DNA from: a virus
DNA: 29,936 nt
Strand: one strand, 5' to 3'
IMG/VR virus record: IMGVR_UViG_3300013372_002329
Span: 1 to 29,936 of that record
The notes beneath the pieces were generated by a model, which did no database searches, was not told the DNA's origin, and saw only the letters and a program-made list of their open reading frames with translations. The position numbers were made by a program, and so were the translations under genes. Positions 4,352 to 24,263 of the stretch are shown piece by piece; position 1 is the stretch's first letter; every line of letters begins with the position of its first letter.

Positions 4352-4682
4352 AAATCAGCCAATTAGTCAAGTTGATATTGAAAACGAACTTCTTCGCCTA
4401 ATAGGAATGCTCGAAGAAGAGACGGAAGCTTTTGAGGTTCTTGCTATAGACAATGCTAAGAAAGAAGCGCTCCATAAATCAAACTGGGCCAAAGAATATC
4501 TTTCAGCAAAAGGCTCAATCAAGGAACGCGAAGCATGGGCTGACTACAAATTAGACGAATCTTCGTTTGATTACAAAATCTCTGAAGCCCTAGTTAAATC
4601 AAAAAGAGAAAAGCTGTTATCCCTGCGTACATCCATAGACGCAATGAGAACGCTCAACGCAAACGTGAGGCATCAAGTATGA
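4341..4682 (+). CDS. Conserved helical phage protein in the recombination cluster
   Basis: A 113-residue, almost entirely helical, charged protein. It starts at GTG 4341 with AAGGA just upstream and overlaps the ruvC-like gene by 11 bases. The end, LRTSIDAMRTLNANVRHQV, together with AKEYLSAKGSIKEREAWAD, resembles a family of small phage proteins of unknown function that sit beside recombination genes. I recognise the pattern but not a named activity. Its stop overlaps the next start as ATGA (4679-4682), so translation is coupled. A role as an accessory to the resolvase or ParB-like neighbour is possible but unproven. Confidence 0.7.
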   Translation: MQNRNQPISQVDIENELLRLIGMLEEETEAFEVLAIDNAKKEALHKSNWAKEYLSAKGSIKEREAWADYKLDESSFDYKISEALVKSKREKLLSLRTSIDAMRTLNANVRHQV

Positions 4683-5485
4683 GCAATGGTATCCACCCGT
4701 CACTTATGGGAATGGCTGTTGATATTGACACGCTTCTCCCACTTGAGAAGAACCCAAGAGTTGGGGACGTTGATGCCATTACTGCCTCCTATGCCGAGTT
4801 CGGGCAGGTAAAGCCAATCGTTGCCAAAAGAAACGACGATGGTACGGCGACCGTAATCGCTGGTAATCACCAACTAGAAGCCGCGAAGATTCTTGGCTGG
4901 GACCAGATTGCCGTTATCTATCTTGAGGGCGATGACTCTCGTGCTGTTGCCTTTGCGCTTGCCGACAACAGAACGGTTGAGCTTGGCTACTCTGAGCCAG
5001 AAATTCTTTACGAACTAATTAGTTCGGTTAGTGACTACTACCCAGAACTTTTGGAAGGACTCGGATGGGACGAATTCGAGATTGCAGAATATGAGCAAGA
5101 GGCTTACAGAAACAGCAGCGAGATGTCGACTAGTGGCAACTATGTTCCTCCAGTACTCATTGACAGAAACGCAGAGATTCAGGGATTCAATGACGTACCT
5201 GAATTGCGTCCACAAGAATTCACCGTTACCAGAGATAGCGAAGGAGAGAACAGAATTGTTGCACCTGCTTCTTCTGACCAAAACGACATAGCTATTCGTG
5301 GTTCAACAATGGCTGCAGGTGCAGGTCAACAAGCAGTAGTTCAGTTCACGCTCGTCTTTGACAACCCTGCCCAACAGTCTCGTTGGTACGATTTTATTCG
5401 CTGGCTAAGAAGCGATGTTTCAATTGTTGGAAATACAACCGCAGAACGGTTAATGGACTTCATCGGCCAACACTCGGAGATTTAA
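4679..5485 (+). CDS. ParB/Srx-like domain protein
   Basis: A 268-residue protein with an N-terminal ParB/sulfiredoxin-like domain (residues ~14-110): LEKNPRVGD, FGQVKPIVAK, the hallmark VIAGNHQLEAAKILGW (G62-N63-H64 in place of the usual G-x-R/E-R) and ALADNRT. A linker follows, then a C-terminal domain (~218-265, VVQFTLVFDNPAQQSRWYDF onward, ending TTAERLMDFIGQHS) of the sort found in phage ParB-like proteins that are often fused or adjacent to DNA methyltransferases. There is no HTH or ParA partner, so plasmid-style partition is unlikely; nuclease or CTP/ATP-binding regulatory activity is more plausible. Its last base is the first base of the next ATG (TAATG). Confidence 0.82.
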   Translation: MSNGIHPSLMGMAVDIDTLLPLEKNPRVGDVDAITASYAEFGQVKPIVAKRNDDGTATVIAGNHQLEAAKILGWDQIAVIYLEGDDSRAVAFALADNRTVELGYSEPEILYELISSVSDYYPELLEGLGWDEFEIAEYEQEAYRNSSEMSTSGNYVPPVLIDRNAEIQGFNDVPELRPQEFTVTRDSEGENRIVAPASSDQNDIAIRGSTMAAGAGQQAVVQFTLVFDNPAQQSRWYDFIRWLRSDVSIVGNTTAERLMDFIGQHSEI

Positions 5486-5706: not shown

Positions 5707-5815
5707 AGAAACAAAAGAACTTGAAAAACTAATATCCGAACGCGATGAACTATTACGCATCGTAGATGAGCTACGCGCCGAGGTCAGTCGGCTTTCACAG
5801 ATTGCAAAATACTAA
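5696..5815 (+). CDS. 39-residue coiled-coil miniprotein
   Basis: ATG 5696 lies 11 bases before the end of the membrane-protein gene and follows GGATGGA. The frame runs 39 codons to TAA 5813-5815, whose last A is the first base of the next ATG. The peptide begins MSPEETKELEKLISERDELL and continues with heptad-spaced Leu/Ile/Val (RIVDELRAEVSRLSQ), so it should form a parallel coiled coil. Start and stop overlaps on both sides fit a translated gene. Function unknown; it might oligomerise or tether the flanking PP-loop protein. Confidence 0.62.
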   Translation: MSPEETKELEKLISERDELLRIVDELRAEVSRLSQIAKY

Positions 5816-6954
5816 TGACTAGACAAAGAATGTTTCTTGACATGAGTTGCATTGATGCTGCTCGCCAAAGAATCCGCCACGTATACGACACCTTCGACAC
5901 GGTATGTGTTCAGTTCTCTGGAGGCAAGGACTCGTCTGCTGTTATGTACCTTGCTAAAGAAGTTCATGAAGAGCGCGGTCTTGGTCCTGTAAAGGTCATC
6001 TTCAGAGACGAAGAAATGGTGAGCCCTAAGACTATTGAGTATGTTGAAAAAGTTCGCAACTACGACTGGGTTGACATGGAGTGGTACTGCCTTCCCTACC
6101 CAGCAGAGATATGGGTTCTTGGCCAAAGAGTTACCACCGTGCTGTGGAGCAATGTGCGAAAGAACCAGGGACGACTCGTAAGAGATATCCCGCCATGGGC
6201 TATCACCGGGGAAGACTTTGGATTAACACACGATGTTTCACTTCCTGAACAGACCGACTATTACACCATGCAGGGAAAGAAGGGGAACGTTGCCTTCATT
6301 ACCGGAGTAAGAGCAAGCGAGTCAATGGTTCGCTATAGGTCTTGTGTTCAAAAGCTTCACGAGAATTACATCGTTACCCCTTATAAACTGAAAACTGGAA
6401 TACCAATGAAGTTTGCCAAGGTCATTTACGACTGGAACACAAACGACGTATTTAAGTTTCTCATCGAAGAGCATGGTTCTGAGTACTGCGAGTACTATGA
6501 CCTTGCCGCCCAGACGCAAAGCAATACCAGAATCGGTATCCCACTTCACAGCATTGCTATCCGTAGGATTGGGGACGTAGTTGCTACGGAGCCAGAGTTC
6601 TACGACAGGCTTGTGGAGTGTTTTCCATACATAGACGCTCAGCGTAGATGGTGGCCTGAATTTGATATTGAAAAACTAATCAATGAATATTCTGGGCTTG
6701 GCCTAGAGGGTGCTTCAATGTTTATTGAGAACTACCTTATTGGGGAGCGCAGGCAAATGGAAGCAAAAGCTTACGTGTCTAAGTTCCGCAAGAAGCATCT
6801 AGAAGACCAACGTGCCTACCCAATCAGTCTGCTAATTAGAACTCTTGTTCTCAACGAAATAGATGGCGGTTCGCCTTCTCCTGTTGGGCCAAGAACCAGG
6901 GCGTACACAGTAAGAAACAATGACGAAGAAATGGATTTAACATATGAAGTATGA
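5815..6954 (+). CDS. PAPS-reductase-like PP-loop protein (IbrA-like)
   Basis: A 379-residue protein with the PP-loop SGGKDSS at residues 35-41 and the second family motif GVRASES-x3-R at ~164-173. These mark the adenylate/PAPS reductase superfamily, which includes CysH, DndC and IbrA. The CysH catalytic ECGIH motif is absent, so it is not an ordinary sulfate-assimilation enzyme. Length, motif spacing and the ParB-like gene directly downstream match the IbrA/IbrB-type pair known from enterobacteria and many phages. Substrate and product are unknown; nucleotide activation, sulfur or base modification, or regulation are all possible. The start overlaps the previous stop (TAATG) and the 3' end overlaps the next gene by 11 bases, so the cluster is translated as a unit. 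Confidence 0.85.
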   Translation: MTRQRMFLDMSCIDAARQRIRHVYDTFDTVCVQFSGGKDSSAVMYLAKEVHEERGLGPVKVIFRDEEMVSPKTIEYVEKVRNYDWVDMEWYCLPYPAEIWVLGQRVTTVLWSNVRKNQGRLVRDIPPWAITGEDFGLTHDVSLPEQTDYYTMQGKKGNVAFITGVRASESMVRYRSCVQKLHENYIVTPYKLKTGIPMKFAKVIYDWNTNDVFKFLIEEHGSEYCEYYDLAAQTQSNTRIGIPLHSIAIRRIGDVVATEPEFYDRLVECFPYIDAQRRWWPEFDIEKLINEYSGLGLEGASMFIENYLIGERRQMEAKAYVSKFRKKHLEDQRAYPISLLIRTLVLNEIDGGSPSPVGPRTRAYTVRNNDEEMDLTYEV

Positions 6955-7498
6955 AATTGAGGAAGTTGACCCGTCAACGCTTATCGTCCCATCATGGAGG
7001 GCAACATACATACTGAGACCAGACCTTTTGGTGCTTTCTGCGTCTCTTCTTGATTTTGGATTTATTCAACCAATCCATGTATCTTCAAGGACCGGAGAAA
7101 TAATTGATGGCTCTGAACGCTATTTGCTAGCCACAAACGTCAAACAGATAATGGAAACAATCGGAGGAACAATTCCGGTTGTAAAACACGATGTTGGGAC
7201 CATGGAAGCAATGGAGATGCACCTTCGCCTCAATAGGGGTAGAGGCTCAGTAGTTGCTAAGCCCATGTCTTCGATAATTAAAAAACTTGTTCGCAATAGG
7301 GCTGCTAATGAAAAAAGTCTGGAAAGAACATTGTGCATGAAGGGCAATGAATACTCTTTAATGATTGACGGAACAATACTGAAGTCAAGGAATATCAAAG
7401 AATATACATACTCAAGAGCATGGGTTCCAGTTGAGGCTCCTCCAGGAACACTTGATAAAGGTCCAATAATTGAATCACCCCCAAATAGCGACAGGTAG
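6944..7498 (+). CDS. ParB/Srx-like protein (IbrB-like)
   Basis: A 184-residue protein with a compact ParB/Srx domain: LLDFGFIQPIHVSS (35-48), the core GEIIDGSERYLLA (51-63) and HLRLNRGRGSVVAKPMSSII (93-112). The NRGRG stretch is close to the NRARG motif of IbrB-type ParB proteins. It overlaps the PP-loop gene by 11 bases, as in ibrA-ibrB pairs, so the two products probably act together. The C-terminal ~65 residues, including KGNEYSLMIDGTILKSRN, have no domain I recognise. It is the second ParB-like protein within 3 kb, but the two are not close copies. No HTH is evident. Confidence 0.8.
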   Translation: MKYEIEEVDPSTLIVPSWRATYILRPDLLVLSASLLDFGFIQPIHVSSRTGEIIDGSERYLLATNVKQIMETIGGTIPVVKHDVGTMEAMEMHLRLNRGRGSVVAKPMSSIIKKLVRNRAANEKSLERTLCMKGNEYSLMIDGTILKSRNIKEYTYSRAWVPVEAPPGTLDKGPIIESPPNSDR

Positions 7499-7578: not shown

Positions 7579-8223
7579 ATGCCTAGAGTAAGATACGGCC
7601 CGGACATTACGGACGACGCAGACTCTCTCATGCTTGACGATAGTCGGATAAAAAACCAAATGGCCGCCCTTAGAAAAAGTGGTGGTGAGGGTTCTGCAAA
7701 ATGGAAAAAGCTTCTCAAAGAGAAAGACTTGCTAAACAAAGCAATTAAAGAAGTTTTTGGTAATCGCAATAACGCTAGAGCACTAGCAAGAGAATCTACA
7801 AGACAACAGGGATACATGTCTCCTGCGGAAGTTAGAGCTCTTGGAGTCAAGAGAAACAAGAAAATTAGAGGCAAAGGACCACTTGGTCTTGCAGCAACCC
7901 CAGGTCGTGGCAGCCAGCAGATTGGCAGAAAAAAGGGCTACCAGGCTCGTGCCAAAGAAACCAACGAAGCCCTTTACAAGTCGGCAACACAGAGAGCAAA
8001 GTCTTCAGCCATTCTTAAGCAGGTAAGAAAACAGAAGACTGCTGCTGAATCAAAAAGAAAAGCATCCAAGTCTAAAGCCGCCAAGAAAGCCAGTGCAGTC
8101 AAAAAGGCTACACCAGTTAAGAAGGCAGCAGCTAAGAAGACTCCAGCTAAGAAGGCTCCAGCCAAGAAGGCTCCAGCTAAGAAGGCTCCAGCCAAGAAAG
8201 CCACACCAAGAAAAAAGCGTTAA
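7579..8223 (+). CDS. Basic protein with histone H1-like Lys/Ala/Pro tail
   Basis: A 214-residue, very basic protein. Residues 1-100 form a helical domain (e.g. RIKNQMAALRKS, then SAKWKKLLKEKDLLNKAIKE) of unknown fold. From ~150 on it becomes a disordered Lys/Ala tail with four perfect AKK(A/T)P pentads at 185-204 and a fifth interrupted one (AKKATP), ending TPRKKR. Such tails occur in eukaryotic H1 and in actinobacterial HU/Hlp, where they bind and condense DNA. Position at the head of the connector genes suggests a virion- or packaging-associated DNA-binding protein, perhaps ejected with the genome; this is inferred. Start ATG 7579 lies 2 bases after the possible leader-peptide stop and has no strong Shine-Dalgarno. 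Confidence 0.78.
   Translation: MPRVRYGPDITDDADSLMLDDSRIKNQMAALRKSGGEGSAKWKKLLKEKDLLNKAIKEVFGNRNNARALARESTRQQGYMSPAEVRALGVKRNKKIRGKGPLGLAATPGRGSQQIGRKKGYQARAKETNEALYKSATQRAKSSAILKQVRKQKTAAESKRKASKSKAAKKASAVKKATPVKKAAAKKTPAKKAPAKKAPAKKAPAKKATPRKKR
8131..8190 (+). repeat. Tandem 15-bp coding repeat (AKK[A/T]P)
   Basis: Four consecutive 15-base units of the form GCYAAGAAGRCTCCA encode AKKTP then three AKKAP, with a degenerate fifth unit after 8190. Units alternate GCT and GCC as the first codon, which suggests duplication of a 30-base block. Confidence 0.9.
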
Positions 8224-10137: not shown

Positions 10138-11676
10138 ATGCCAGGCGTAGTTATCTCCACAGCAGTCAGAACAGGCCCATCTTCCGCAACAGTGCGCGAA
10201 TCTTCGCAGCTTTTTGTTGTCGGATTAGCAGAGCGCGGACCCGTAGGTGAAGCGGTTCTTGTTCAAAGTCTTGCAGAATTTGAAAATGTATTCGGAGGCT
10301 TTATTGCCCATTCGTACCTCCACTCAACGGTAGAGACGTTTTTTGAAGAGGGTGGCACACAAGCGTATGTATCCAGAGTTGCTGGCGCAGCAGCCACAAC
10401 AGGAACACTTGTTCTTGAAAACGAAGATGAAGATGAACTTCTCGTTCTTGACGCAAACGGCCCTGGTGCATGGAGTGCCGACATTACAGCAACGGTAACC
10501 AATCCAACAGTATCAACGTTTGCAGTAATCATTTCTTACGACGGCGAGCCTGTGTACAACACGGGAGTTGTTTCAACAGTGGCTCAAGCCGTTGGTCGCA
10601 TCAACTTGAGCCCCATCGCTTCCCGCTATGTGGTTGCCGAATTGGGTGCCGACGTAGGAGTTGCAGGAGTTAGTCAACTTCCAGCAGTACTTGCAGCAAC
10701 GGCGCTTTCAACAGGCGGGGAAGACCTTGCAGGCGTTGATGACGCTGTTTTGGCTTCTGGCCTTGACGTGTTTAACGATTCTCTCGGTGCCGGTGCCGTT
10801 TCAATACCAGACGGAGAAACGGCTACTCGTGTTACTGTCGGAGGAGGTCCAGCAACGGACTACGACGGAACATTAAAGGCAGATTTTGACATTTCTGCTG
10901 CGCTTATTGCTCATGCAAATGCAAACAATAGAATTGCAATCTTGCATTGTGGTGTCGCAGACACTGCTGAGTTTGCAATCGACAAGAGCGATGACCTCAA
11001 GCTTCTTGAAGACCTTGAGCATGCAGCCATTTATTTCCCATGGGTTAGTGTTCCAACATCAACTACCGGACTGACAAGAAGAATTCCACCAGATGGATAT
11101 GTTGCCGCAAAGCGCGCTCTTGCTCACAATCAAGGTGGAGCACACGTTCCAGCAGCTGGTTCGATTTCTAGCGCACGATTTGTTTCTGGAGTAGCATTAG
11201 ACATCAACAAGACTGTTGGTGACGAGCTCGATTCGGAAAACGTGAATGCAATCAGAATCATTCAAAACTCTGTCAGAGTTTATGGTGCTCGTTCGCTTTC
11301 TATCGATACGGAAAACTTCCGCCACATTACAACCCAGGAAATCATCAACCACATCGTTGTTGAATCACAAAGGTCCCTCGAAGACCTTATCTTTGGCGTA
11401 ATAGACGGCCGTGACACTATCTTCTCTGCAATCACATCAAGATTGATAGCAATCCTTGCTCCTATGCGCGAGCAGGGTGCTCTCTTCCAAGCATTTGATG
11501 CCAATGGTAAGAAAATTGACAACGGCTATACGGTCCGTTGCGATTCCTACCTAAACCCAGTCAGCCAACTAGCAGGCGGTACTGTAAAGGCAAAAGTTGG
11601 TGTCCGCACCAGCGGTGTCGGTGACAAAATTGAAGTCGACATCATCAAGTCTAACCTGACCGCTAGTGTCGTCTAA
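10138..11676 (+). CDS. Contractile tail sheath protein
   Basis: A 512-residue protein beginning MPGVVISTAVRTGPSSATVR, with the diagnostic early sheath pattern (FVVGLAERGPVGEAVLVQSL, then EFENVFGG and FFEEGGTQAYVSRV). The C-terminal third contains RRIPPDGYVAAKRA, later INAIRIIQNSVRVYGARSLS-like text (NVNAIRIIQNSVRVYGARSL) and the final YLNPVSQLAGGTVKAKVGVR strands that interlock neighbouring subunits. This fits the Phage_sheath_1 family. The protein surrounds the tail tube and contracts to drive it through the envelope. A clear AGGAAGG precedes ATG 10138. The tail tube gene follows 14 bases after the stop. Confidence 0.93.
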   Translation: MPGVVISTAVRTGPSSATVRESSQLFVVGLAERGPVGEAVLVQSLAEFENVFGGFIAHSYLHSTVETFFEEGGTQAYVSRVAGAAATTGTLVLENEDEDELLVLDANGPGAWSADITATVTNPTVSTFAVIISYDGEPVYNTGVVSTVAQAVGRINLSPIASRYVVAELGADVGVAGVSQLPAVLAATALSTGGEDLAGVDDAVLASGLDVFNDSLGAGAVSIPDGETATRVTVGGGPATDYDGTLKADFDISAALIAHANANNRIAILHCGVADTAEFAIDKSDDLKLLEDLEHAAIYFPWVSVPTSTTGLTRRIPPDGYVAAKRALAHNQGGAHVPAAGSISSARFVSGVALDINKTVGDELDSENVNAIRIIQNSVRVYGARSLSIDTENFRHITTQEIINHIVVESQRSLEDLIFGVIDGRDTIFSAITSRLIAILAPMREQGALFQAFDANGKKIDNGYTVRCDSYLNPVSQLAGGTVKAKVGVRTSGVGDKIEVDIIKSNLTASVV

Positions 11677-11690
11677 AGAAGGATATAAAC

Positions 11691-12170
11691 ATGTCAAAAG
11701 TATCTCAGCGCCAAGTACTTGCATCGATTGTGCCAGTATCGTCAGCCATTCACCCACTGTGGACAAATTTTAAATTTGCTCAGGTTTCTGGTGGAGAAAT
11801 CACTGCATCTGTTGAAAAGATTTACGAAGGCGGCAAGCTCCGTCCTACCGTTCTGTGTGCTCCATCTGAAGTTGGCGACATTACTTTGACCGCTCACTAC
11901 GATGACGACAGAATTGCAGCAGAAGGCGCAACAGGAATTGCAGAAAAAATCTCAACCCTTCGTCCATTGGTTGGTCGTGCTTCTTACAACATCACGATTG
12001 AGACCTTTGACTGCGACCTAAAAGTCCCAGGAACCGACCGCGTATACCCACAGGCTCTCTTGGTTGGAATTACAGAGCCAGACGGCGACTCATCTTCGGG
12101 AGCCCCTGCGACTTTCTCGCTAACATTTGCCATCTCGGACGTTGAGTCCGGTGCTGCAGCAGCTGGCTGA
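11691..12170 (+). CDS. Tail tube protein
   Basis: A 159-residue beta-rich protein directly after the sheath gene, in the invariant sheath-tube order. Segments such as WTNFKFAQVSGGEITASVEK, RPTVLCAPSEVGDITLTAHY and ATFSLTFAISDVESG fit the beta-barrel of the inner tail tube (T4 gp19-like). It stacks as hexameric rings inside the sheath and guides DNA. AAGGA lies 8 bases before ATG 11691. The acidic/Ala-rich C-terminus (SGAAAAG) is probably flexible. Confidence 0.85.
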   Translation: MSKVSQRQVLASIVPVSSAIHPLWTNFKFAQVSGGEITASVEKIYEGGKLRPTVLCAPSEVGDITLTAHYDDDRIAAEGATGIAEKISTLRPLVGRASYNITIETFDCDLKVPGTDRVYPQALLVGITEPDGDSSSGAPATFSLTFAISDVESGAAAAG

Positions 12171-12227: not shown

Positions 12228-12767
12228 ATGACAGAAAACTCTGAACTCTATACAACATCCACAGAAGATTCTTCTCCAAGGGCCAAGCAGGCTAAAGCTG
12301 CTGTCGCCGTAGAAGAAACCCCACTTCAGAAGCTTACGAGCATCGTGAAGAAAAAGGTTGAGCGCCAGGTTGTGCTTATTCCTGTTCCAGAACGTCCTGG
12401 GGTAAAAATCAAAATTAGTCCAAACATTACCCAGAATCAAATGAAGAACTGGCGTAAGCAAGCTGGTGAAGACACCCGTAACGGCATGGACGGAACTCGT
12501 TTTGCTTGCTCAGTTATTGGTCACACAACTGTTGGAATTCTGTTTGATGACGAAGAAGTATTCGATGACTTCGGCAACGAGCTGACATTTGCTTCTCCTG
12601 CAATCCTTGAAATGACAAGTACGACTCGCCCACTTCCTGACTGTGTTAAGGAATTCTTTGGAGTTGACCCTCACATTGAGGCTGCTGCTCTTTCGATTCT
12701 TGACGCTGCTGGATATTCTGATTCGGTGGATGTTGAGGACCCTACGAAGGGGTCTTCGACGAACTAA
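12228..12767 (+). CDS. Tail assembly chaperone, short form (gpG-like)
   Basis: A 179-residue protein located between the tail tube and tape-measure genes, where tail assembly chaperones lie. The first ~40 residues are polar; a folded part follows (QVVLIPVPERPGVKIKISPN to TRPLPDCVKEFFGVDPHIEA) and an acidic end (SVDVEDPTKGSSTN). The chaperone binds the tape measure and is absent from mature virions. Near its end the mRNA reads AAG GGG TCT; slipping back one base on GGGG (12749-12752) bypasses the TAA and adds 59 residues, giving a G-T-type fusion (see the next entry). The ratio of the two products normally matters for tail assembly. Confidence 0.82.
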   Translation: MTENSELYTTSTEDSSPRAKQAKAAVAVEETPLQKLTSIVKKKVERQVVLIPVPERPGVKIKISPNITQNQMKNWRKQAGEDTRNGMDGTRFACSVIGHTTVGILFDDEEVFDDFGNELTFASPAILEMTSTTRPLPDCVKEFFGVDPHIEAAALSILDAAGYSDSVDVEDPTKGSSTN

Positions 12768-12931
12768 CCGAAGACCCTCTGGTCATATCGGCAGCAAGAC
12801 TAGGCGAACTGTTCGGGACAGACCCAATAAGACTTTTAGATTCAACAGAAATTGAATGGCTGATAAGGCTTGCTTGTGCTAAAGTAATAAGTAACGACCG
12901 CGAAGAGCAGGAACGTAAATCTAGGCAATAA
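12228..12931 (+). CDS. Tail assembly chaperone, -1 frameshift fusion (gpGT-like)
   Basis: After GGG 12750-12752 the -1 frame reads GTC TTC GAC (VFDELTEDPLVISAARLGEL, then FGTDPIRLLDSTEIEWLIRL, ending EERKSRQ-like text EEQERKSRQ) to TAA 12929-12931. This frame is open only from 12737, just after TGA 12734-12736, and has no ATG, GTG or TTG before its conserved-looking start. Independent translation is therefore unlikely and frameshifting is the simplest reading: 175 codons plus 59, about 234 residues. A perfect 9-bp stem, GGGTCTTCG (12750-12758) with CGAAGACCC (12769-12777), begins in the slip site and carries the zero-frame TAA in its loop. The T part would recruit the tape measure, as in lambda gpGT. 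Confidence 0.8.
12749..12777 (+). promoter_or_regulatory. Programmed -1 frameshift site with hairpin
   Basis: The slip run is GGGG (12749-12752). A P-site tRNA-Gly on GGG can re-pair perfectly after moving back one base. The perfect 9-bp stem 12750-12758/12769-12777 has a 10-base loop containing the zero-frame stop (12765-12767). There is no spacer between slip run and stem, unlike the usual 5-9 bases, so the stem would be partly open during decoding. Confidence 0.7.
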
Positions 12932-12951
12932 ACCAGATTTACACCTACACT

Positions 12952-12990
12952 CACGCGATTTTCCCAAAAATCGTAAATGAGCGTGTGAGG
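12952..12990 (+). other. Leader hairpin ahead of the tape measure gene
   Basis: CGATTTT (12956-12962) pairs perfectly with AAAATCG (12967-12973) across a 4-base loop. An outer stem CACG (12952-12955)/CGTG (12982-12985) closes it across an internal loop. The outer arm ends next to the GAGG Shine-Dalgarno (12987-12990) of GTG 12998, so the fold could limit tape-measure translation. Confidence 0.35.
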
Positions 12991-12997
12991 TCTAAAC

Positions 12998-15900
12998 GTG
13001 GCCAGGGCTGAAGGTACAGTCAATATTGAGGTTAAGGGTGCCCTACAGGGTGCTCTTGAAGTACGCACCCTCGCAAAATCTCTTGACAAACTTGATAGAG
13101 CAGGCAAAAAGCTAAGTAGCGGTGCTAAAACAATAGAGACTTACTCTCAAAACTTGTTGACCGCAAATGTAAAAACCCGTAAAGTTTTTGACTCCATGGA
13201 CAAGGGAATCAAAATGATGGGTATGGGCTTGACCAAGGGTCTTATGCTTGCCCTCAAGGCTACGGTTCTTCAGTTTGGTGTATTTTCACTTGCCTTAATG
13301 GGTGTTCATGCATTGTTTATAGCAGGGAAATGGCTACACAAAGCCTATTCATGGGGAATGACTGCCATGGCCGGCGCGGCCGCTAGCGCTGCAGTAGCAC
13401 TTGGAACAGCCGCCGCTGCTATCCGTGAACAACAAGCAGCAATGTATGCATTCACAAAGGGTGGAGCAGGGGAGTTTCTTACAGGAACAAACCAGGTTCG
13501 TGTTGCAATGCGGACCCTCCAGACTGACTCGCAGTTAGCAGGTCTCGGTGTGGCTGCTTTAAATAAAGCCTACGCAGCTATGGCCAAGTCCATGAAGTCT
13601 TCGCAGATTGCACAAAGCGGTGGGCTAATGAAAAACCTCATGGACTTTGGGGCTGCAGGACAAGACCCAGCAGCAGCAGCCGACAAGGTTGGCGCACTTA
13701 TTGAAGCTCTCAACAACTCCAAGACAAGCATGGCTGGCGTTAGGCAGGCAGCAAAAGCACTTGGCCCGCAGATGGAACAGGCTCTTAAAAAAGCAAAAGT
13801 AACCAGCAAAAAACAGATGAAAGAACTCATCATGTCTGGCGAGCTCGCCAAAGCTGGTGGTGTTGCAGGACAGTTTGAGGCCGTTAACTCAACACTAATA
13901 GGTCAAGCAAAATCTTTCTTTAATCAAATAAAAGCTCAATTTGCAGACTTTGGTCAAGAGTTTCTTGAACCAGCAAAAGTTGCAATGACAAAAATCTTTA
14001 GAATTATAAGAAACGACCTAAAGCGTGTCAGTGGTTCTATGGCCGATTTTGGAGAAAGTAAATTTTTTGATGGACTTGTTGCAACGTTTGAAAAAATATC
14101 AAACTTCTTTGTAAAACTGATTAGAGAATGGCTTCCCAAAACCGATGGATTTTTTCAGAACATGGGCAAAGGCTGGGAAAAGTTTGCTCGCTGGTTCAGG
14201 ACTTCTAGAGAACAATTGAGACCGTTCGTTGAAGGTGCCAAATCAATAGAAGGAATATTCAAACCTATTCTTGAGGCTTTGAAGGCCGGTTTCTTAGGTT
14301 CGTTTAAAGACTTCAACGCTGGTGCTATCAGCAACAAAGAGACGTTTGCTGAGATAGGACAGACCCTTGGCAGCTTAATCACCGAGCTATTTAAACTTTC
14401 AGACATATTCAGCACAGCGTTTAGGGATGCTTTGCCATTCCTCAGTGATGTAATTAAAGGCATAACTCAAGTAGTCGGCATGATGACTGGAATGCTTTCT
14501 AAGTTCAGTGGCATTCTTGGCGGGCCAATGGCCTACATGGCTCTTCTTATGATGGGTCGTCAAATGAAAAGCCATAAAGGTGGCTTTCTCGGTAAAGAGC
14601 GCGCACCTGTAAACACAATGAACGTCATAGCCAAGACCGTAGTCATTGGCGGCAAGCCAATACCCGGCAGCCCAGGAACTCCACCAGGTGGACCAGGGAC
14701 ACCACCTATCGGACCAGTTAAACCAATACCAGGCGGACCAGGCACTCCGCCAGTTACGCCAGGCACACCAAAGCCAATACCAGGAGTGCCCGTATCAATA
14801 AAACCAAGAGGCAAGCCGCTTTATGACCAACATGGCACCCCTTTGTATGGTGGTCGTAGGCATCCTTCTGATACAAGACAATTTGGAACCGACTCCGCGG
14901 GTCGCCTTGTTCGCTACAAAACCGATTACCCTAATCGTGACGCAAAGCTCGTAGGACGAGGCGCGTGGGTAACCAGAAACGGTAAAACTTACTGGAATAG
15001 CGGTGCTTTTAATAAAAAAACACCAGGAGCCGGTGATGTTGGCATAACAGGTCGAGGTGGTGCACCGTATCCAGCCTCACCAACTGCTGGAAGTAGCACT
15101 AGACCAATAATGATGGCCCATCAGCGTTATCAGATTATTAGCCCAACTGCACCTGGACCATCTTCTCCTATTGATGGACTAAGACTCTCGTCTGGTGCGA
15201 TGCCTGGACCGGGCGGTGGTGGTACTGGCGGTATGCCGGGTCCTGGCGGACCAGGAACAGCTCCTCCGGGGGCAGGTGGACCGGCAATGAGTGGCGCATA
15301 TTCTCGTCCAGGATTTTTTAGGCGTATATCTGAAGGTTCTAGACAACAAGCCCAAGGACAAACCGGCGTTGGTCAGGACCTGTTTCGTTCTAGCCTTACA
15401 GGAAGAATGCGTGCAAGAGCCGAGATTGCAACCAACCCTGACGGCACACCCGGTGACTACACAGGTCGTGTTATAGGTCTCAATAGAGGCATTGACCCGC
15501 TTACTGGTTTGCGTACTGGAAGACATGAAGCAAACTACGACCCTCAAACTGGATTTATATCCACAAAAGGCATAAAAATAATTGACGAAAAAACAGGGAA
15601 ACAAAGCTATAGCAAAACTATGGCAAACAAATTAAAGTACTCCGGCAGGACGGCGCGCTCAACAAGAAACAGTGCCCTTGGTTCCGCAGTTCTTGGTAAC
15701 GCAGAAAAAGGCATTGGCGGAATAAACAACAGCATGGGTGCAAAGATGGCTGTCGGTATGGGAATGTCAATGGCTTCTCAGTACATGCCTGAAGAAGCAC
15801 AAGGAGCAATGGCTCTTGGTGGAATGGTTGGTCAATTTAACCCGCTTGCTGGTCTTGCAGTTGGTCTTGGTGGTGCTGCACTTAACTCCAAAACAGCCGC

Positions 15901-18148
15901 AGGTGGAGCACTAACTGGTGCAGGTGCAGGTGCAGCAATAGGAACGATGATTGCTCCTGGAATTGGTACTGCTGTAGGTGCGGCGCTTGGTGCAATAACC
16001 GGTGCAATTGCCGGTTTTGCTGGAGGAATAAGACAAAGAGCCAAAGAGTCAAAAGAAGCAATGGGGTCATTTCTCGACGGAATATCTGCCCGTGCATTTA
16101 ATGACGCCCAAGGGGCAGCGTATCGACAACAGGCAGATGCAGACGCAGGTGTAGACATGTCTGGAAGAGAGGGAGCCTATAGCACTATTGCCGGAGAAAC
16201 TGCTGCAGCTTATGCAAAGCTAGATGAAAAACTTAAAAAAGGTAACTTCCGTGGTAAATACAGCGCAGAAACATCAACACAAGCAAAAAGGGGCGCTATT
16301 GGTGGTGGTTTAGCAGGTGCTGCAGGAGGCGCAGCATACGGCGCAGCTGTTGGCTCTCTTGGCGGGCCATTAGGAACACTGGCCGGAGCAGGACTAGGAG
16401 CGCTTATAGGCGGTATTGCTGGGTCGGGTCTTGGAGCTGCTGTTGGTGGAGTGTGGGGGAAGATGACTGGCAGTAAACGCAAAAAGCAGCAGAAGAAAGA
16501 CTTCAATCTTCTGAAAGAAATAAGCGAAGACCCAGCTTTTAGGGGAATCATTAGTCCTGAAGAAATGGCTTCCATAAACAAAGACAAAGGTGCTGCACTC
16601 ACAAAGCTTGCCAAAGAACTACCCGACAGAATGGAAGCAGCAACCGCAATCGCTGACCAGCAAAGCTCCCGCATGAAAGTGCTTCAAACCATGAGCGGAA
16701 AATCTGGAGCAGAACTAGAAGTCCTTGCCAAGAAGATGGGTGTAGACCTGTACGACGCAACAGCAAAGACGTCTGACATAGTTAAAAAACTTGCTTTAAC
16801 AATGGTTAAATCCGCAAGGCAAATGGAAGACGCCAACATAGATGCGTCCGTCAATGCCATATCTAGCGTCTTTGACGAAGCAATTAAAAGTATTAGAGCC
16901 CCAGAAATATACGACGAAGCAGGAGCGGCGTTAAGAAGCACAATCAAGGGTGGAGGGGACACAGTATCTGTTCTTGGTGCTCTAGAAAAATTTCAGACTG
17001 CATCTGTTGGGTTGACTGGGGATGGTGCGATATCTGACTTCTACAACCAAAAACGGCAATTAGGTACAGCTGAAGACCCTGGAAATATTTTTGGACCAGG
17101 TGGAGCATTCCACGATATGGACCCGGCAGATTTCTTTACCCCCAAAGTTACTGAAGTTCTTACCGCAAGCCAGACAAAAGCCGAAAAGGGCTTTATAGAT
17201 ACAGCGACTGGCCAAATACAAGGACAACTTGGCGAAGCAAACATGTACGGCAACAAGGGCAAGATGGCTGCAGCAATCAAAAGCATGCCAGAAGCCAGGA
17301 GGGAGCAATTCCTCAAGGACGTGACTGCTGGTACTTTCACAGTGGACGACCCGTTTAAAGACAAAACAAATGCAGAATCAAAAGCAATATATACAGCTGC
17401 GGGTTACACGAGCAAAGCAGAATACGTAGCTGCAAATCTTAATAACAAGTTCTCTGAATATGGCGCAACCACGACCACCCCTCTTAACGTTAAAACTATA
17501 GACAACAGGACAAACAACGCTGTTGCAAAAAAAATGTTGACAGCGTCAGATACGTTTAAAACAGCCGTTGACAATTTTAACAAAGACATGAAAACTTATT
17601 TTGGAGCAGACGCCAATAAGCCAGATTGGTGGTCAATAGAAGCCATGAAAGAAATCATGAAGGGCGACACCAGCACTCCTCGTGGAGGGACGGTGGGTGA
17701 CACGACTTCATCGCGCATTAGTCAGACTATGGCTAGACATGATGCTATTAACGGTTCAATTGCTGGGAGCAGGTCAATAACTTCAGGCTATAGAACTTAT
17801 GGTCTTGGTTCCCTTAACTCCGACCACATTACCGGTAGAGCGATAGACCTTGTTGGGCAGAACCTTGGCTCGTACGCAGTTGCTACTCGTAATGCTGGAG
17901 GATTTGCCGAGTTCCACGGAAGTGGTGGCGACAGACATCTTCACGCAGTTCCAGGACCAGGAGCAATCGGCGACACTTTAACTCCATCTTCTAACCAAAT
18001 GAGCACGACAACTAGCGCTACTGTTGCATCAGGAACAAGTTCTTATACTTTCCACATCAATGGTGGACAAAACAACCCAGAACAGATAGCAAACATGGTC
18101 ATGGCAAAGATAAAGAATTCTGAACAAAGAACAAGGGAGAGAATCTAA
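12998..18148 (+). CDS. Tape measure protein with C-terminal M15-type peptidase domain
   Basis: At 1716 residues this is the longest gene. It starts at GTG 12998 after GAGG. The tail-length ruler is recognised by position, size and helical composition. In order: a hydrophobic segment (~78-142); long helices; a Pro/Gly-rich linker with PGTPP-type repeats (~552-600); a second Gly/Pro linker (~734-765); two glycine-zipper hydrophobic regions (~966-1012 and ~1098-1157) that could insert into the host membrane; and a peptidase domain near the end. That domain shows SGYR (1596-1599), SDHITGRAIDL with H1610 and D1617, and H1647-L-H1649, the zinc-site pattern of M15 D-Ala-D-Ala peptidases. It would cut peptidoglycan cross-links during DNA entry. 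The stop overlaps the next ATG (TAATG). Confidence 0.92.
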   Translation: MARAEGTVNIEVKGALQGALEVRTLAKSLDKLDRAGKKLSSGAKTIETYSQNLLTANVKTRKVFDSMDKGIKMMGMGLTKGLMLALKATVLQFGVFSLALMGVHALFIAGKWLHKAYSWGMTAMAGAAASAAVALGTAAAAIREQQAAMYAFTKGGAGEFLTGTNQVRVAMRTLQTDSQLAGLGVAALNKAYAAMAKSMKSSQIAQSGGLMKNLMDFGAAGQDPAAAADKVGALIEALNNSKTSMAGVRQAAKALGPQMEQALKKAKVTSKKQMKELIMSGELAKAGGVAGQFEAVNSTLIGQAKSFFNQIKAQFADFGQEFLEPAKVAMTKIFRIIRNDLKRVSGSMADFGESKFFDGLVATFEKISNFFVKLIREWLPKTDGFFQNMGKGWEKFARWFRTSREQLRPFVEGAKSIEGIFKPILEALKAGFLGSFKDFNAGAISNKETFAEIGQTLGSLITELFKLSDIFSTAFRDALPFLSDVIKGITQVVGMMTGMLSKFSGILGGPMAYMALLMMGRQMKSHKGGFLGKERAPVNTMNVIAKTVVIGGKPIPGSPGTPPGGPGTPPIGPVKPIPGGPGTPPVTPGTPKPIPGVPVSIKPRGKPLYDQHGTPLYGGRRHPSDTRQFGTDSAGRLVRYKTDYPNRDAKLVGRGAWVTRNGKTYWNSGAFNKKTPGAGDVGITGRGGAPYPASPTAGSSTRPIMMAHQRYQIISPTAPGPSSPIDGLRLSSGAMPGPGGGGTGGMPGPGGPGTAPPGAGGPAMSGAYSRPGFFRRISEGSRQQAQGQTGVGQDLFRSSLTGRMRARAEIATNPDGTPGDYTGRVIGLNRGIDPLTGLRTGRHEANYDPQTGFISTKGIKIIDEKTGKQSYSKTMANKLKYSGRTARSTRNSALGSAVLGNAEKGIGGINNSMGAKMAVGMGMSMASQYMPEEAQGAMALGGMVGQFNPLAGLAVGLGGAALNSKTAAGGALTGAGAGAAIGTMIAPGIGTAVGAALGAITGAIAGFAGGIRQRAKESKEAMGSFLDGISARAFNDAQGAAYRQQADADAGVDMSGREGAYSTIAGETAAAYAKLDEKLKKGNFRGKYSAETSTQAKRGAIGGGLAGAAGGAAYGAAVGSLGGPLGTLAGAGLGALIGGIAGSGLGAAVGGVWGKMTGSKRKKQQKKDFNLLKEISEDPAFRGIISPEEMASINKDKGAALTKLAKELPDRMEAATAIADQQSSRMKVLQTMSGKSGAELEVLAKKMGVDLYDATAKTSDIVKKLALTMVKSARQMEDANIDASVNAISSVFDEAIKSIRAPEIYDEAGAALRSTIKGGGDTVSVLGALEKFQTASVGLTGDGAISDFYNQKRQLGTAEDPGNIFGPGGAFHDMDPADFFTPKVTEVLTASQTKAEKGFIDTATGQIQGQLGEANMYGNKGKMAAAIKSMPEARREQFLKDVTAGTFTVDDPFKDKTNAESKAIYTAAGYTSKAEYVAANLNNKFSEYGATTTTPLNVKTIDNRTNNAVAKKMLTASDTFKTAVDNFNKDMKTYFGADANKPDWWSIEAMKEIMKGDTSTPRGGTVGDTTSSRISQTMARHDAINGSIAGSRSITSGYRTYGLGSLNSDHITGRAIDLVGQNLGSYAVATRNAGGFAEFHGSGGDRHLHAVPGPGAIGDTLTPSSNQMSTTTSATVASGTSSYTFHINGGQNNPEQIANMVMAKIKNSEQRTRERI
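14660..14800 (+). repeat. Pro/Gly-rich degenerate repeats in the tape measure gene
   Basis: Near-repeats encode PGTPPGGPGTPP, PIPGGPGTPP and PIPGVP, with CCAATACC(C/A)GG recurring three times at the DNA level. A second, shorter Gly/Pro stretch lies near 15200-15290. They probably form an extended, flexible linker between the ruler and membrane/peptidase parts. Confidence 0.7.
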
Positions 18149-20046
18149 TGCCAGTAACACCTCAACCGACTCAAGAAACCTACTATTACAAAGAGGTTAG
18201 AAAAACGCAGCCTGGTGCCGGTGTTGTGTATGCTGGATATCCAATTTATCACTTATACAAACGTTTCTTAAGCGGCACTGACGCCAGAGAGGTCTCAACA
18301 AACAAAACAAAGACTATTACAAATGTTTCAAGAGTGGTTTCTCCAAGTCATATTGCAACCATAACAGTCGGTGCTGGCCACTTGTTTAAAACAGGAGAGA
18401 TGGTTACCGTTTCTGGCTTAACAAACACTTCTTACAATGGGACCTACGCAATAACAGCAATTGGTGCAACAACCATATCTTACGCAAATACCGGTAGCGT
18501 TCAATCTTCTACTGTTGACGCTGGAACCGCATCAATAGATATTGAATACTGGCTGCCGCTCCCTAATCTTACTTCATATAAAGAATATAACCCTGGAGAT
18601 GAAAACGTTCCTGCCGAAAGAACTAAATACGAACCGCGAGGCTTGGTAGGAGCAGGGAAAACCCGTAGGTACTATCCAGACAGGTTCAGTATATATACGC
18701 ATAAATATTATGGAACTAAATTATATGTTGCAACAGGCAGAACGAAGCCATACCCCGTTTCGTCAGCGCTTCTTCCAACGACAAACCCTTATTCTTATAC
18801 GAATATTCAAGTCTGGATTGAAAGTCCTCAAACGTATGTAAACACCTATGATAATTACGGTAATTTAATTGTTCCTTCTTACTGGTATCACCCGTTTGAA
18901 AATAGGTTTTATCCGTTTGGGAATTTAGCAACTTTTGGATTTACTGATAGCCAATACTTGATTGATAGTTTATTTACTAGAGACACATCGGGCCAAAGCA
19001 ATGAGTCCCTTATGGCTAATGCGGCAGATTCAATTAGGCTTGCCAAGATTGATGAATTAATTTCTAGAGGCATTACAAGAGCCGAGGCAATCGCTCTGAT
19101 AAACGCCAATGCAGCTGCTGCGCTTTCGACAAGAGCAGCAAATTCTTTGATTACGCCAAGTGCAAGAATTGCCATAAGACCACCTGCAGCTACTAGTGTC
19201 TCCGTAAACGTTAGAGGAACATCTCTTGCCAGAACGCTTTCTACTAGCTCTGTAACCATTGCTACTTCTCAAGCTCCCAAGCTTGTTCAGACAACTACTT
19301 CCGGACAGCCCAAACTTGAATACACGTTTCGTCATAGGCCAAACCAAATTACTTACTCAAGCATTGGTTCTGAATGGTCACCTATTGACCGTGCAGCAAA
19401 TAGACCGATGGTTGATTGGAAGTCTTATAAACTAATGAGCGTTACATTTAGTTTTATAGTTGCACCAGACGACAATGGAAGCCTTGATGGCGCTATTGAC
19501 AATGGCGTAATAACAACAAGTGTGGATAGTGAATTAAAAACGCTTAGACAAATGGCAATGAGTCCGTTTCCTGTTGTTTTTATGGGTTTTGACAAACTCT
19601 TAGAAGAACCTGTTAGGTACCCATTTAACAACGATGCAGGAAAAGGTTCGCTATTTGTTATAGCTGATTTTGGTGTTACGTCCATATATCGAAGTTCAAC
19701 CGGTGCAATAAGCAGGGCTTCGTGCGACATGACCTTGACCGAGTATCCCAAAGAACTAATAAAACTTGTTGAGTTTCCAAAACTTAAACCAATGAAGTTT
19801 ACACCAGTAGAAGAATCAAATGAAAAACCACTCTGTGACGGCAACCTGGCTACGAACACTTTTAACACAAAAGTGGGGCTTACCGTAGAACGCTTGAAAG
19901 AATTGGCAGCTAGAGGTTTTATAGAATATAGTGGCACATGTAAGTCTACTAGAGTACTTATGAGAGACGCTTACAACGCGGCTATAATAAACCCACTCAC
20001 CCCTCTTGACGGTATTAGAGACGACGGAACGTTTGTGAAGCCATGA
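18148..20046 (+). CDS. Baseplate/minor tail protein with inserted beta module
   Basis: A 632-residue protein between the tape measure and hub genes. Residues ~50-131 are a small beta module (HLFKTGEMVTVSGLTNTSYN, then GTYAITAIGATTISY) also present in the J-like wedge protein (22827-24263). The middle is Tyr/Pro-rich, and ~315-375 is Ala/Ser-rich and probably linker. The C-terminal part (~385-600), including SVTFSFIVAPDDNGSLDGAI, MSPFPVVFMGFDKLLEEPVR and SRASCDMTLTEYPKELIKL, has the look of LysM-adjacent gp53/gpU-like baseplate proteins that hold the tube end to the hub. The family call is by pattern and order. It overlaps both neighbours (TAATG and ATGA). Confidence 0.68.
   Translation: MPVTPQPTQETYYYKEVRKTQPGAGVVYAGYPIYHLYKRFLSGTDAREVSTNKTKTITNVSRVVSPSHIATITVGAGHLFKTGEMVTVSGLTNTSYNGTYAITAIGATTISYANTGSVQSSTVDAGTASIDIEYWLPLPNLTSYKEYNPGDENVPAERTKYEPRGLVGAGKTRRYYPDRFSIYTHKYYGTKLYVATGRTKPYPVSSALLPTTNPYSYTNIQVWIESPQTYVNTYDNYGNLIVPSYWYHPFENRFYPFGNLATFGFTDSQYLIDSLFTRDTSGQSNESLMANAADSIRLAKIDELISRGITRAEAIALINANAAAALSTRAANSLITPSARIAIRPPAATSVSVNVRGTSLARTLSTSSVTIATSQAPKLVQTTTSGQPKLEYTFRHRPNQITYSSIGSEWSPIDRAANRPMVDWKSYKLMSVTFSFIVAPDDNGSLDGAIDNGVITTSVDSELKTLRQMAMSPFPVVFMGFDKLLEEPVRYPFNNDAGKGSLFVIADFGVTSIYRSSTGAISRASCDMTLTEYPKELIKLVEFPKLKPMKFTPVEESNEKPLCDGNLATNTFNTKVGLTVERLKELAARGFIEYSGTCKSTRVLMRDAYNAAIINPLTPLDGIRDDGTFVKP
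18295..18540 (+). repeat. Copy 1 of a shared ~80-residue beta module
   Basis: Translates to residues ~50-131 of the minor tail protein. It is homologous to 23571-23798 in the wedge gene, with shared KTK.ITNV, ATIT.G..H.F..G..VTVSGLTNT..NGTY..TA.G.TTISY....S and VD.GT. DNA similarity is still visible across much of the module. Confidence 0.85.
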
Positions 20047-22826: not shown

Positions 22827-24263
22827 ATGGCAGCAGATTTTTCACAATACGTAGACCTTACTATTTACGATAAACAGCCTGGAGACATGTACCTGGAAGC
22901 CATAGAGATGGCTCGCTTAACCATGCCTGAGTTTACGCTTAGAGCGGGAACTGTAGAAGATGCAATATTTCAGGCCATGGCGTGGATTGGCTGGACAAAA
23001 GCCAGCGCTATGAACAGGGTTCCAGACAGACTAATGGCGGGCATTCTTTCAATGATGGGCGTAACAGCGCAAACTGCTTCTTCGGCAGAGGTGTCGGTTA
23101 CGGTTGTTGCAGACTCTTACGAAGGTGCGACAATACCTCCTGGAACAGTTTTTGGATACTCGGTTCCATTTGAAGATGAAATTCTTGATTACGTATTTTA
23201 CACTGTTGAAGCATTGGAAATTCCTTCTGATGAATCTCCATCCCCGGGCGACCCGTTTCCTTCTGGTCAAGTTCTTACCCAGTGTTTTACTCCTGGCGTT
23301 ATTCCTTATGTCGACCCAGGGACTCCTCTTTCCATCTTGACTCCGTCAACATCGATTCTTAGCGCACAGGCTTATACGGACTTTCAAAACGGAACAAACG
23401 ACGAAACGTCTGCAGGATTTTTATCTAGGTCCGTTTCTTATCTTTCCTCCCTTGCTTCAACCCTAGTCAAAGCAAGCCAGGTTGATGCTTTCGTATCAAA
23501 TGGGTATTCAGGATTAGTCGGCCGTGTTCGAACCTATGACTTAACAGACGGCACTGATACCGGAATTATTGCAACAAGCAAAACAAAAGCAATTACAAAC
23601 GTGACAATAACTAGCAGCGTTGCAACAATAACAATTGGCTCTAACCATCAGTTTGAAGTTGGGGACATAGTGACAGTTTCGGGATTGACAAACACTGTAT
23701 GTAATGGCACCTATACATTAACGGCAGTCGGTGGAACCACCATCTCCTATCCAAGAACTGGTTCTATCTCCAACCCTGTTGACTCAGGAACGGTTGCTAA
23801 GGGAGTTGACGTTGTTGGGTACATTACAGTGTTTGTATATGGAAATGGTAATTTTCTTACAGAAACACAGCTTGACGATATTCAATATGAAGTTGCCAAC
23901 AAAGCTATTCCGGGTCTTATTGTTAACGTACGTAACGTTGAACTTCTTTCATTAGGTATTACCGCCTCTGTTGTTCTTGACTCAAATTACGACCAAGAAC
24001 CACTGCAACAAACTGTAGAAAACTCTCTTATTGAATACCTAAGCCCAAATTCTTATCCAACATCAGAAGATGCAGTTAGGGTTAATCAATTAGTTGCAAT
24101 AATTAGCTCTATCCCTGGAGTTAGGTACGTTAGCTCTCTTTCATTAAGTCCAGGAACTGGAAATTGGCTTCCGCAAATTGACACAAACCTAGAACCCGCA
24201 AACAAGGGTTGGGCTCCAAGAATCACCCCTGATGATTTAACAATTTCATATACGGTGGTTTAG
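22827..24263 (+). CDS. Baseplate wedge protein (gp47/J-like) with inserted beta module
   Basis: A 478-residue protein of the Baseplate_J family. The N-terminal part has MYLEAIEMARLTMPEF and an early helical region; ATIPPGTVFGYSV is the conserved strand region; DAFVSNGYSGLVGRVRTYDL and GYITVFVYGNGN lead to the C-terminal domain with EDAVRVNQLVAIISSIPGVR. Between RTYDLTDG and GVDVVGYITVF, where relatives run straight on, an ~80-residue beta module (residues ~249-324) is inserted. The same module occurs in the 18148-20046 product. The protein forms the outer ring of the wedge with gp25 and the gpI-like protein. ATG 22827 follows GGAAG. Confidence 0.87.
   Translation: MAADFSQYVDLTIYDKQPGDMYLEAIEMARLTMPEFTLRAGTVEDAIFQAMAWIGWTKASAMNRVPDRLMAGILSMMGVTAQTASSAEVSVTVVADSYEGATIPPGTVFGYSVPFEDEILDYVFYTVEALEIPSDESPSPGDPFPSGQVLTQCFTPGVIPYVDPGTPLSILTPSTSILSAQAYTDFQNGTNDETSAGFLSRSVSYLSSLASTLVKASQVDAFVSNGYSGLVGRVRTYDLTDGTDTGIIATSKTKAITNVTITSSVATITIGSNHQFEVGDIVTVSGLTNTVCNGTYTLTAVGGTTISYPRTGSISNPVDSGTVAKGVDVVGYITVFVYGNGNFLTETQLDDIQYEVANKAIPGLIVNVRNVELLSLGITASVVLDSNYDQEPLQQTVENSLIEYLSPNSYPTSEDAVRVNQLVAIISSIPGVRYVSSLSLSPGTGNWLPQIDTNLEPANKGWAPRITPDDLTISYTVV
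23571..23798 (+). repeat. Copy 2 of the shared ~80-residue beta module
   Basis: Residues ~249-324 of the J-like wedge protein, homologous to 18295-18540. Shared text includes VTVSGLTNT, CNGTY/YNGTY and TTISY. The module interrupts an otherwise continuous J-family fold. Confidence 0.85.

Follow-up and report, generated by a model that had tools for sequence, protein, structure and literature searches.

How a reading frame with no start codon of its own comes to be translated beyond the end of a phage tail assembly chaperone gene, and at which codon the ribosome would change frame to reach it, is the question raised by this locus. The window, which is the whole stretch of 29,936 nucleotides analysed here, is a 29.9-kb virus record, and the chaperone with its extension occupies positions 12228 to 12931.

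The gene lies on the + strand among other tail genes. A tail sheath (10138-11676; PHROG 23 tail sheath, E 2.6e-31) and a tail tube protein (11691-12170; PHROG 5102, E 2.1e-20) precede the G-like zero-frame chaperone product of 179 aa (12228-12767; PHROG 5088 'tail assembly chaperone', E 3.6e-12), which is directly followed by the tape measure protein (12998-18148; PHROG 167 tape measure, E 3.2e-7, and PHROG 1047 tail lysin). The order tail tube, chaperone, tape measure is given by the PHROG matches in the window and is also found in six annotated phages. The presence of sheath, tube, chaperone and tape measure around the site denotes a contractile-tailed phage (myophage). Homologues of the chaperone are annotated as tail assembly chaperones in phages of Gordonia, Arthrobacter and Brevibacterium, and the source phage is probably a virus of actinobacteria. 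A Pfam search with the fusion, the sheath and the tube gave no match, and no chaperone homologue was found in the bacterial genome collection searched for one.

Several other features of the window were noted on the way. In its C-terminal part the tape measure protein has a motif, read by eye, that resembles M15/VanY D,D-peptidases (SGYRTYGLGSLNSDHITGRAIDL...EFHGSGGDRHLH), and residues 1096-1230 of the protein match PHROG 1047 'tail associated lysin'. Two different proteins of the tail/baseplate region, encoded at 18148-20046 and 22827-24263, resemble each other in an inserted stretch (..TKTITNVS...HLFKTGEMVTVSGLTNTSYNGTYAITAIGATTISYANTG.. and ..TKAITNVT...HQFEVGDIVTVSGLTNTVCNGTYTLTAVGGTTISYPRTG.., respectively), as though one gene of this phage had received a copy of a domain from another. 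A protein whose tail of AKKAPAKKA repeats resembles histone H1 is encoded at 7579-8223, just before the head-tail connector genes, and a PAPS-reductase-like ORF with a SGGKDSSAVMYLA motif (5815-6954) is flanked by ParB-like ORFs at 4679-5485 and 6944-7498, as judged by eye.

The zero-frame ORF of the chaperone stops at the TAA at 12765-12767. The -1 frame is closed upstream by the TGA at 12734-12736, as the first-pass annotation had stated, so that any shift must come after it, and then stays open from 12737 to 12931. ATG, GTG and TTG are absent from this frame throughout. Its part after the shift (12743-12931, stop codon at 12929-12931) is a T-like extension of 62 codons, YEGVFDEL...RKSRQ. 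Past the zero-frame stop, dN/dS of the homologous ORFs against the window is about 0.03-0.33, which shows purifying, protein-level selection on the extension.

A homologue set of 78 distinct junctions was obtained from 258 loci, many of which repeat a contig already included; the 78 are related by descent, and the counts given below are not independent trials. The junctions span phages of Gordonia, Arthrobacter (Marthavirus, Klausavirus, Vibakivirus, Ayohtrevirus) and Brevibacterium together with several environmental phage groups, with identity down to 16-33% among the distant members. The -1 ORF is retained in all of them, and 38 of the 78 have no ATG, GTG or TTG in its first 35 codons. It is annotated as a joined gene in the Gordonia phages GMA6, DalanDe, UBSmoodge and ScarletRaider, recorded as a separate hypothetical gene in Abba, BarretLemon, Wyborn, Zartrosa, KBurrousTX, PrincessTrina, DrYang, Colucci, Cantare and Chidiebere, and unannotated in Brent, Beans, Vibaki, Hirko and ArV1. 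The annotated phages without a joined gene are loci L033, L034 and L094-L105 (Arthrobacter phages and Brevibacterium phage Cantare) and L106 (Gordonia phage Chidiebere). Some of these records (Abba, BarretLemon and others) place there a short gene with an internal start and the same stop as the -1 ORF, which would suit a product of its own that arises through coupled initiation or re-initiation with no frameshift. This is very improbable, given a window ORF with no start codon at all and so many homologues with none near the beginning; initiation would also offer no reason for the conserved C_CCN codon and the stem at fixed spacing described below. The separate and unannotated extensions are probable cases of missed frameshift annotation. 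A -1 frameshift from the tail chaperone into a start-less second ORF, the central claim of the first-pass annotation, agrees with the frames, with the conservation among homologues and with PHROG 5088.

Two slip-capable runs, C_CCT at 12740-12743 and GGGG at 12749-12752, are located in the permitted interval, though GGGG had been taken as the only good one. C_CCN is found at the homologous place in 78 of 78 distinct overlaps (CCCT 66, CCCC 9, CCCG 3 and CCCA 0, with CCCG performing poorly in E. coli) and is the sole slip-capable codon common to them all. Other Z_ZZN motifs are present in the overlap less often, with G in 22, T in 8 and A in 1 of the 78. For the 36 overlaps of at most 12 codons, the codon frequencies of these genes predict C_CCN in about 7; it is present in every one. 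Moreover, the codon before the proline codon always ends in C (GAC 76, AAC 1, AGC 1), whereas GAT accounts for 41% of Asp codons elsewhere in the genes, and CCA, the commonest Pro codon elsewhere in them, never occurs at the slip site. The proposed slip is thus one in which tRNA-Pro on CCT (12741-12743) re-pairs with CCC (12740-12742).

Slippage on GGGG (AAG GGG T) would instead place the beginning of the stem inside the slip run and leave no spacer. The window and its closest relatives do have the run, and re-pairing from GGG to GGG is possible; since those relatives (82-100% identity) retain the whole GGACCCTACGAAGGGGTCTTCGACGAA, some with A for G before ACCCT, C_CCT and GGGG are not separable by them. 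Relatives at 59-86% identity have AAG GAG, AAG GAA, AGG GAG or AAC GAA with the -1 ORF present, and one locus (L064) reads GAA AAC CCT ACG AAC TAG, which contains no G run and still has the -1 ORF. GGGG itself occurs in only 17 of the 78 junctions, being replaced elsewhere by GGAG, GGAA or CGAA or missing while the ORF is kept; any G_GGN is found in 22 and none in 56. The changes to GGAG and GGAA are matched by the 3' arm of the stem, which argues that these bases act as part of the stem. A ribosome slipping on GGGG would, in addition, have to open the stem at the moment of slipping, and the study that measured a G_GGG signal in E. coli explained it by Shine-Dalgarno-like initiation and not by slippage (PMC4066793). 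We therefore regard a slip on GGGG as very unlikely and keep C_CCT as the preferred site.

C_CCT belongs to the Z_ZZN tetramers, in which a single ZZN codon re-pairs with ZZZ, and such a tetramer (C_CCT, C_CCC or C_CCG) is present in all 78 junctions. The X_XXY_YYZ heptamer of tandem P- and A-site re-pairing is absent from the window, which reads C_CCU_ACG; A-site re-pairing is impossible on ACG, which leaves a single tRNA to re-pair, and the slip would not be of the classic tandem type. In relatives the codon after the slip codon is mostly ACG, TCG or ACC, and the heptamer is found only in Gordonia (C_CCU_UUG; three junctions read) and in Brevibacterium phage Cantare (C_CCU_UUA). A Shine-Dalgarno-like stimulator was sought by eye, and relatives do not preserve the GGTGG that the window has at about -15 to -11. 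Nothing specific on C_CCU in tail genes was found in the literature searched.

Downstream of the slip codon, GGGTCTTCG (12750-12758) pairs perfectly with CGAAGACCC (12769-12777) and carries the zero-frame TAA in the loop (12759-12768). This 9-bp stem had been described before and is borne out by our analysis. A G-U pair between 12749 and 12778 extends it to 10 bp, with a 5' arm GGGGTCTTCG (12749-12758) that includes GGGG and a 3' arm CGAAGACCCT (12769-12778). In relatives the stem reaches 12 bp (GGRRTCTTCGAC-GAACTA-GTTGAAGAYYCC), and that of the window is shorter because TAGTT is replaced by TAACC. Across 45 distinct segments 89.6% of cells pair and six of the twelve pairs have changes on both sides; when the partner was slid by 1 to 3 columns as a control, the paired cells dropped to 33-53%. 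Outside one subclade, named CCC-TCG after its slip codon and the codon that follows, column pair 12/37 is A-U in 34 and G-C in 9 segments with zero exceptions, and column pair 13/36 is solely A-U, G-C or G-U. The change at 12/37 couples a Gly/Glu change in the zero frame to a Pro/Ser change in the -1 frame. Such A-U/G-C covariation, partly coupled to amino-acid changes, denotes that the RNA pairing is selected. When the stretch after the slip codon was folded, the window gave z = -2.5 and most close relatives about -3 to -8, and the stem is beyond chance. An Rfam search of 12600-13000 returned no match. The alignment of homologous loci, which the first-pass annotation had proposed as a check for a conserved slip run and a conserved stem, thus upholds the stem as conserved and covarying but not GGGG.

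The geometry of the stem becomes ordinary when the slip is placed at CCCT. The slip codon lies seven to nine bases upstream of GGGG and the stem starts after a 5-nt spacer, ACGAA (12744-12748), which is constant throughout the close clade; a stem-loop of 10-12 bp is therefore present at ribosomal spacing, within the range of about 5-9 nt expected after a slip codon. The earlier claim of a stem without spacer does not hold, and with a normal spacer the special action once invoked for it, on an initiating polymerase or after partial unwinding, is unnecessary. Another hairpin, formed by 12731-12743 and 12749-12761, appears in the lowest-energy fold of 12725-12830 and could be proposed as the active RNA element. 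Relatives preserve just 68-69% of its pairs, versus 90-94% for the downstream stem, and since it shares bases with the slip codon, a ribosome positioned there would already have opened it; we give this hairpin hardly any chance of being the active element. Transcriptional slippage on the short runs, yielding mRNA in the other frame, is just as implausible. It has no specific support and leaves the conserved downstream RNA stem at ribosomal spacing unexplained. The runs used for transcriptional slippage are, besides, far longer than CCC or GGGG.

The downstream stem is not shared by the whole family. In the CCC-TCG subclade of eight junctions (members L121, for example L121:2013-2105, L150, L186, L168, L152, L146, L139 and L143) the 5' arm is kept and the local 3' arm is lost. 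The 5' arm GGGGTCT can pair there with AGACCCC about 70 nt downstream, and an alignment fold has this far helix begin at the same point, 5 nt past the slip codon. The Pro codon that takes part in the far pairing is CCC in 8 of 8 members and mostly other than CCC in other relatives. As the far helix is composed of invariant pairs, it is only a suggestion. A local stem was sought by folding in the Arthrobacter, Brevibacterium and Gordonia homologues and none was detectable (z near 0); the stimulator is lineage-specific or absent in them. The slip codon appears to be the old element and the stimulator the lineage-specific one. There is about an even chance that, in the whole actinobacterial myophage tail-gene family, a bare C_CCY serves as a natural -1 slip site fixed over deep divergence, with an exchange of stimulators around it: a local stem in the clade of the window, re-pairing over about 70 nt in the subclade, and an extended heptamer with no stem in Gordonia and Brevibacterium.

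The reading frames, the C_CCN conservation, the covariation of the stem, the purifying selection on the extension and the gene order are all observed directly and point to a programmed -1 ribosomal frameshift at C_CCT with a 3' stem, by which the myophage tail assembly chaperone gene would very probably yield two products. From them we infer the slippage itself and its rate. A ribosome on ...GAG GAC CCT ACG... would meet the 10-bp hairpin 5 nt beyond CCT, and in a minority of passes the tRNA-Pro on CCT would slip one base back onto CCC, a single-tRNA slip on C_CCU, with TAC as the codon read after it. The predicted fusion has 234 aa, 172 aa followed by YEGVFDEL...RKSRQ, and would be made alongside the 179-aa zero-frame chaperone. 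The fusion of about 234 residues proposed earlier stands, as any -1 shift in the interval gives this length, but its junction does not: VEDP-YEGVFDEL is predicted in place of TKG-VFDEL. A slip on CCCT would give the junction peptide SDSVDVEDPYEGVFDELTEDPLVISAAR, whereas one on GGGG would predict DPTKGVFDEL. If the two products act like lambda gpG and gpGT (PMC5009743), the shorter one may coat the tape measure, and the longer, rare one may recruit tail tube subunits.

The PRFect tool's described motif set contains no such tetramer for backward shifts (PMC10274946). With the claimed anomaly of a spacer-less stem removed, a testable family rule takes its place, namely GAC CCY at the chaperone end, which points to unannotated frameshifts in several sequenced Arthrobacter phages and in Brevibacterium phage Cantare. 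Its members further make up a natural series, alike in the slip codon and different in the stimulator.

The lambda-type frameshift of the tail chaperone genes G and GT was reportedly described by Levin in 1993 and by Xu in 2004. With the lambda G/GT system, as reviewed in PMC5009743, the locus has in common a gene that stands between those for tail tube and tape measure and an overlapping second ORF with no start of its own, which forms a short conserved extension; gene order, a start-less -1 ORF under selection and a conserved slip site in the overlap are all found here. The slip site in lambda is a G_GGA_AAG-like heptamer, whereas here it is a C_CCY tetramer, and the locus differs further in its strong covarying 3' stem-loop with a 5-nt spacer. 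The homologues of the Gordonia phages GMA6, DalanDe, UBSmoodge and ScarletRaider, with about 26-31% identity over the zero-frame part, show the same -1 arrangement, and the junctions of the first three have the GAC CCT codon pair in common with the window. Unlike the window, these joined-gene phages have the heptamer in full, C_CCU_UUG, and a local stem is not detectable in them. All Z_ZZN tetramers were measured in E. coli by Sharma et al. 2014, where C_CCU and C_CCC were among six that, given a stimulator, exceeded the background at least 4-fold (PMC4066793). The natural usage found here, CCT over CCC over CCG with no CCA, fits the reported hierarchy (PMC4066793). Note that the best tetramer in E. 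coli reached 5.6% with a strong pseudoknot and that C_CCU ranks lower (PMC4066793); C_CCU is weak in that host, and the tRNA-Pro of an actinobacterial host may behave differently. IS1/IS3-family elements mainly use A_AAG, U_UUU, U_UUC and A_AAA, compared with C_CCY in this phage tail gene family (PMC4066793). The locus is thus, with high probability on the sequence comparisons, a -1 frameshift of the lambda G/GT type on a C_CCY tetramer, a known kind of event on a less usual slip site.
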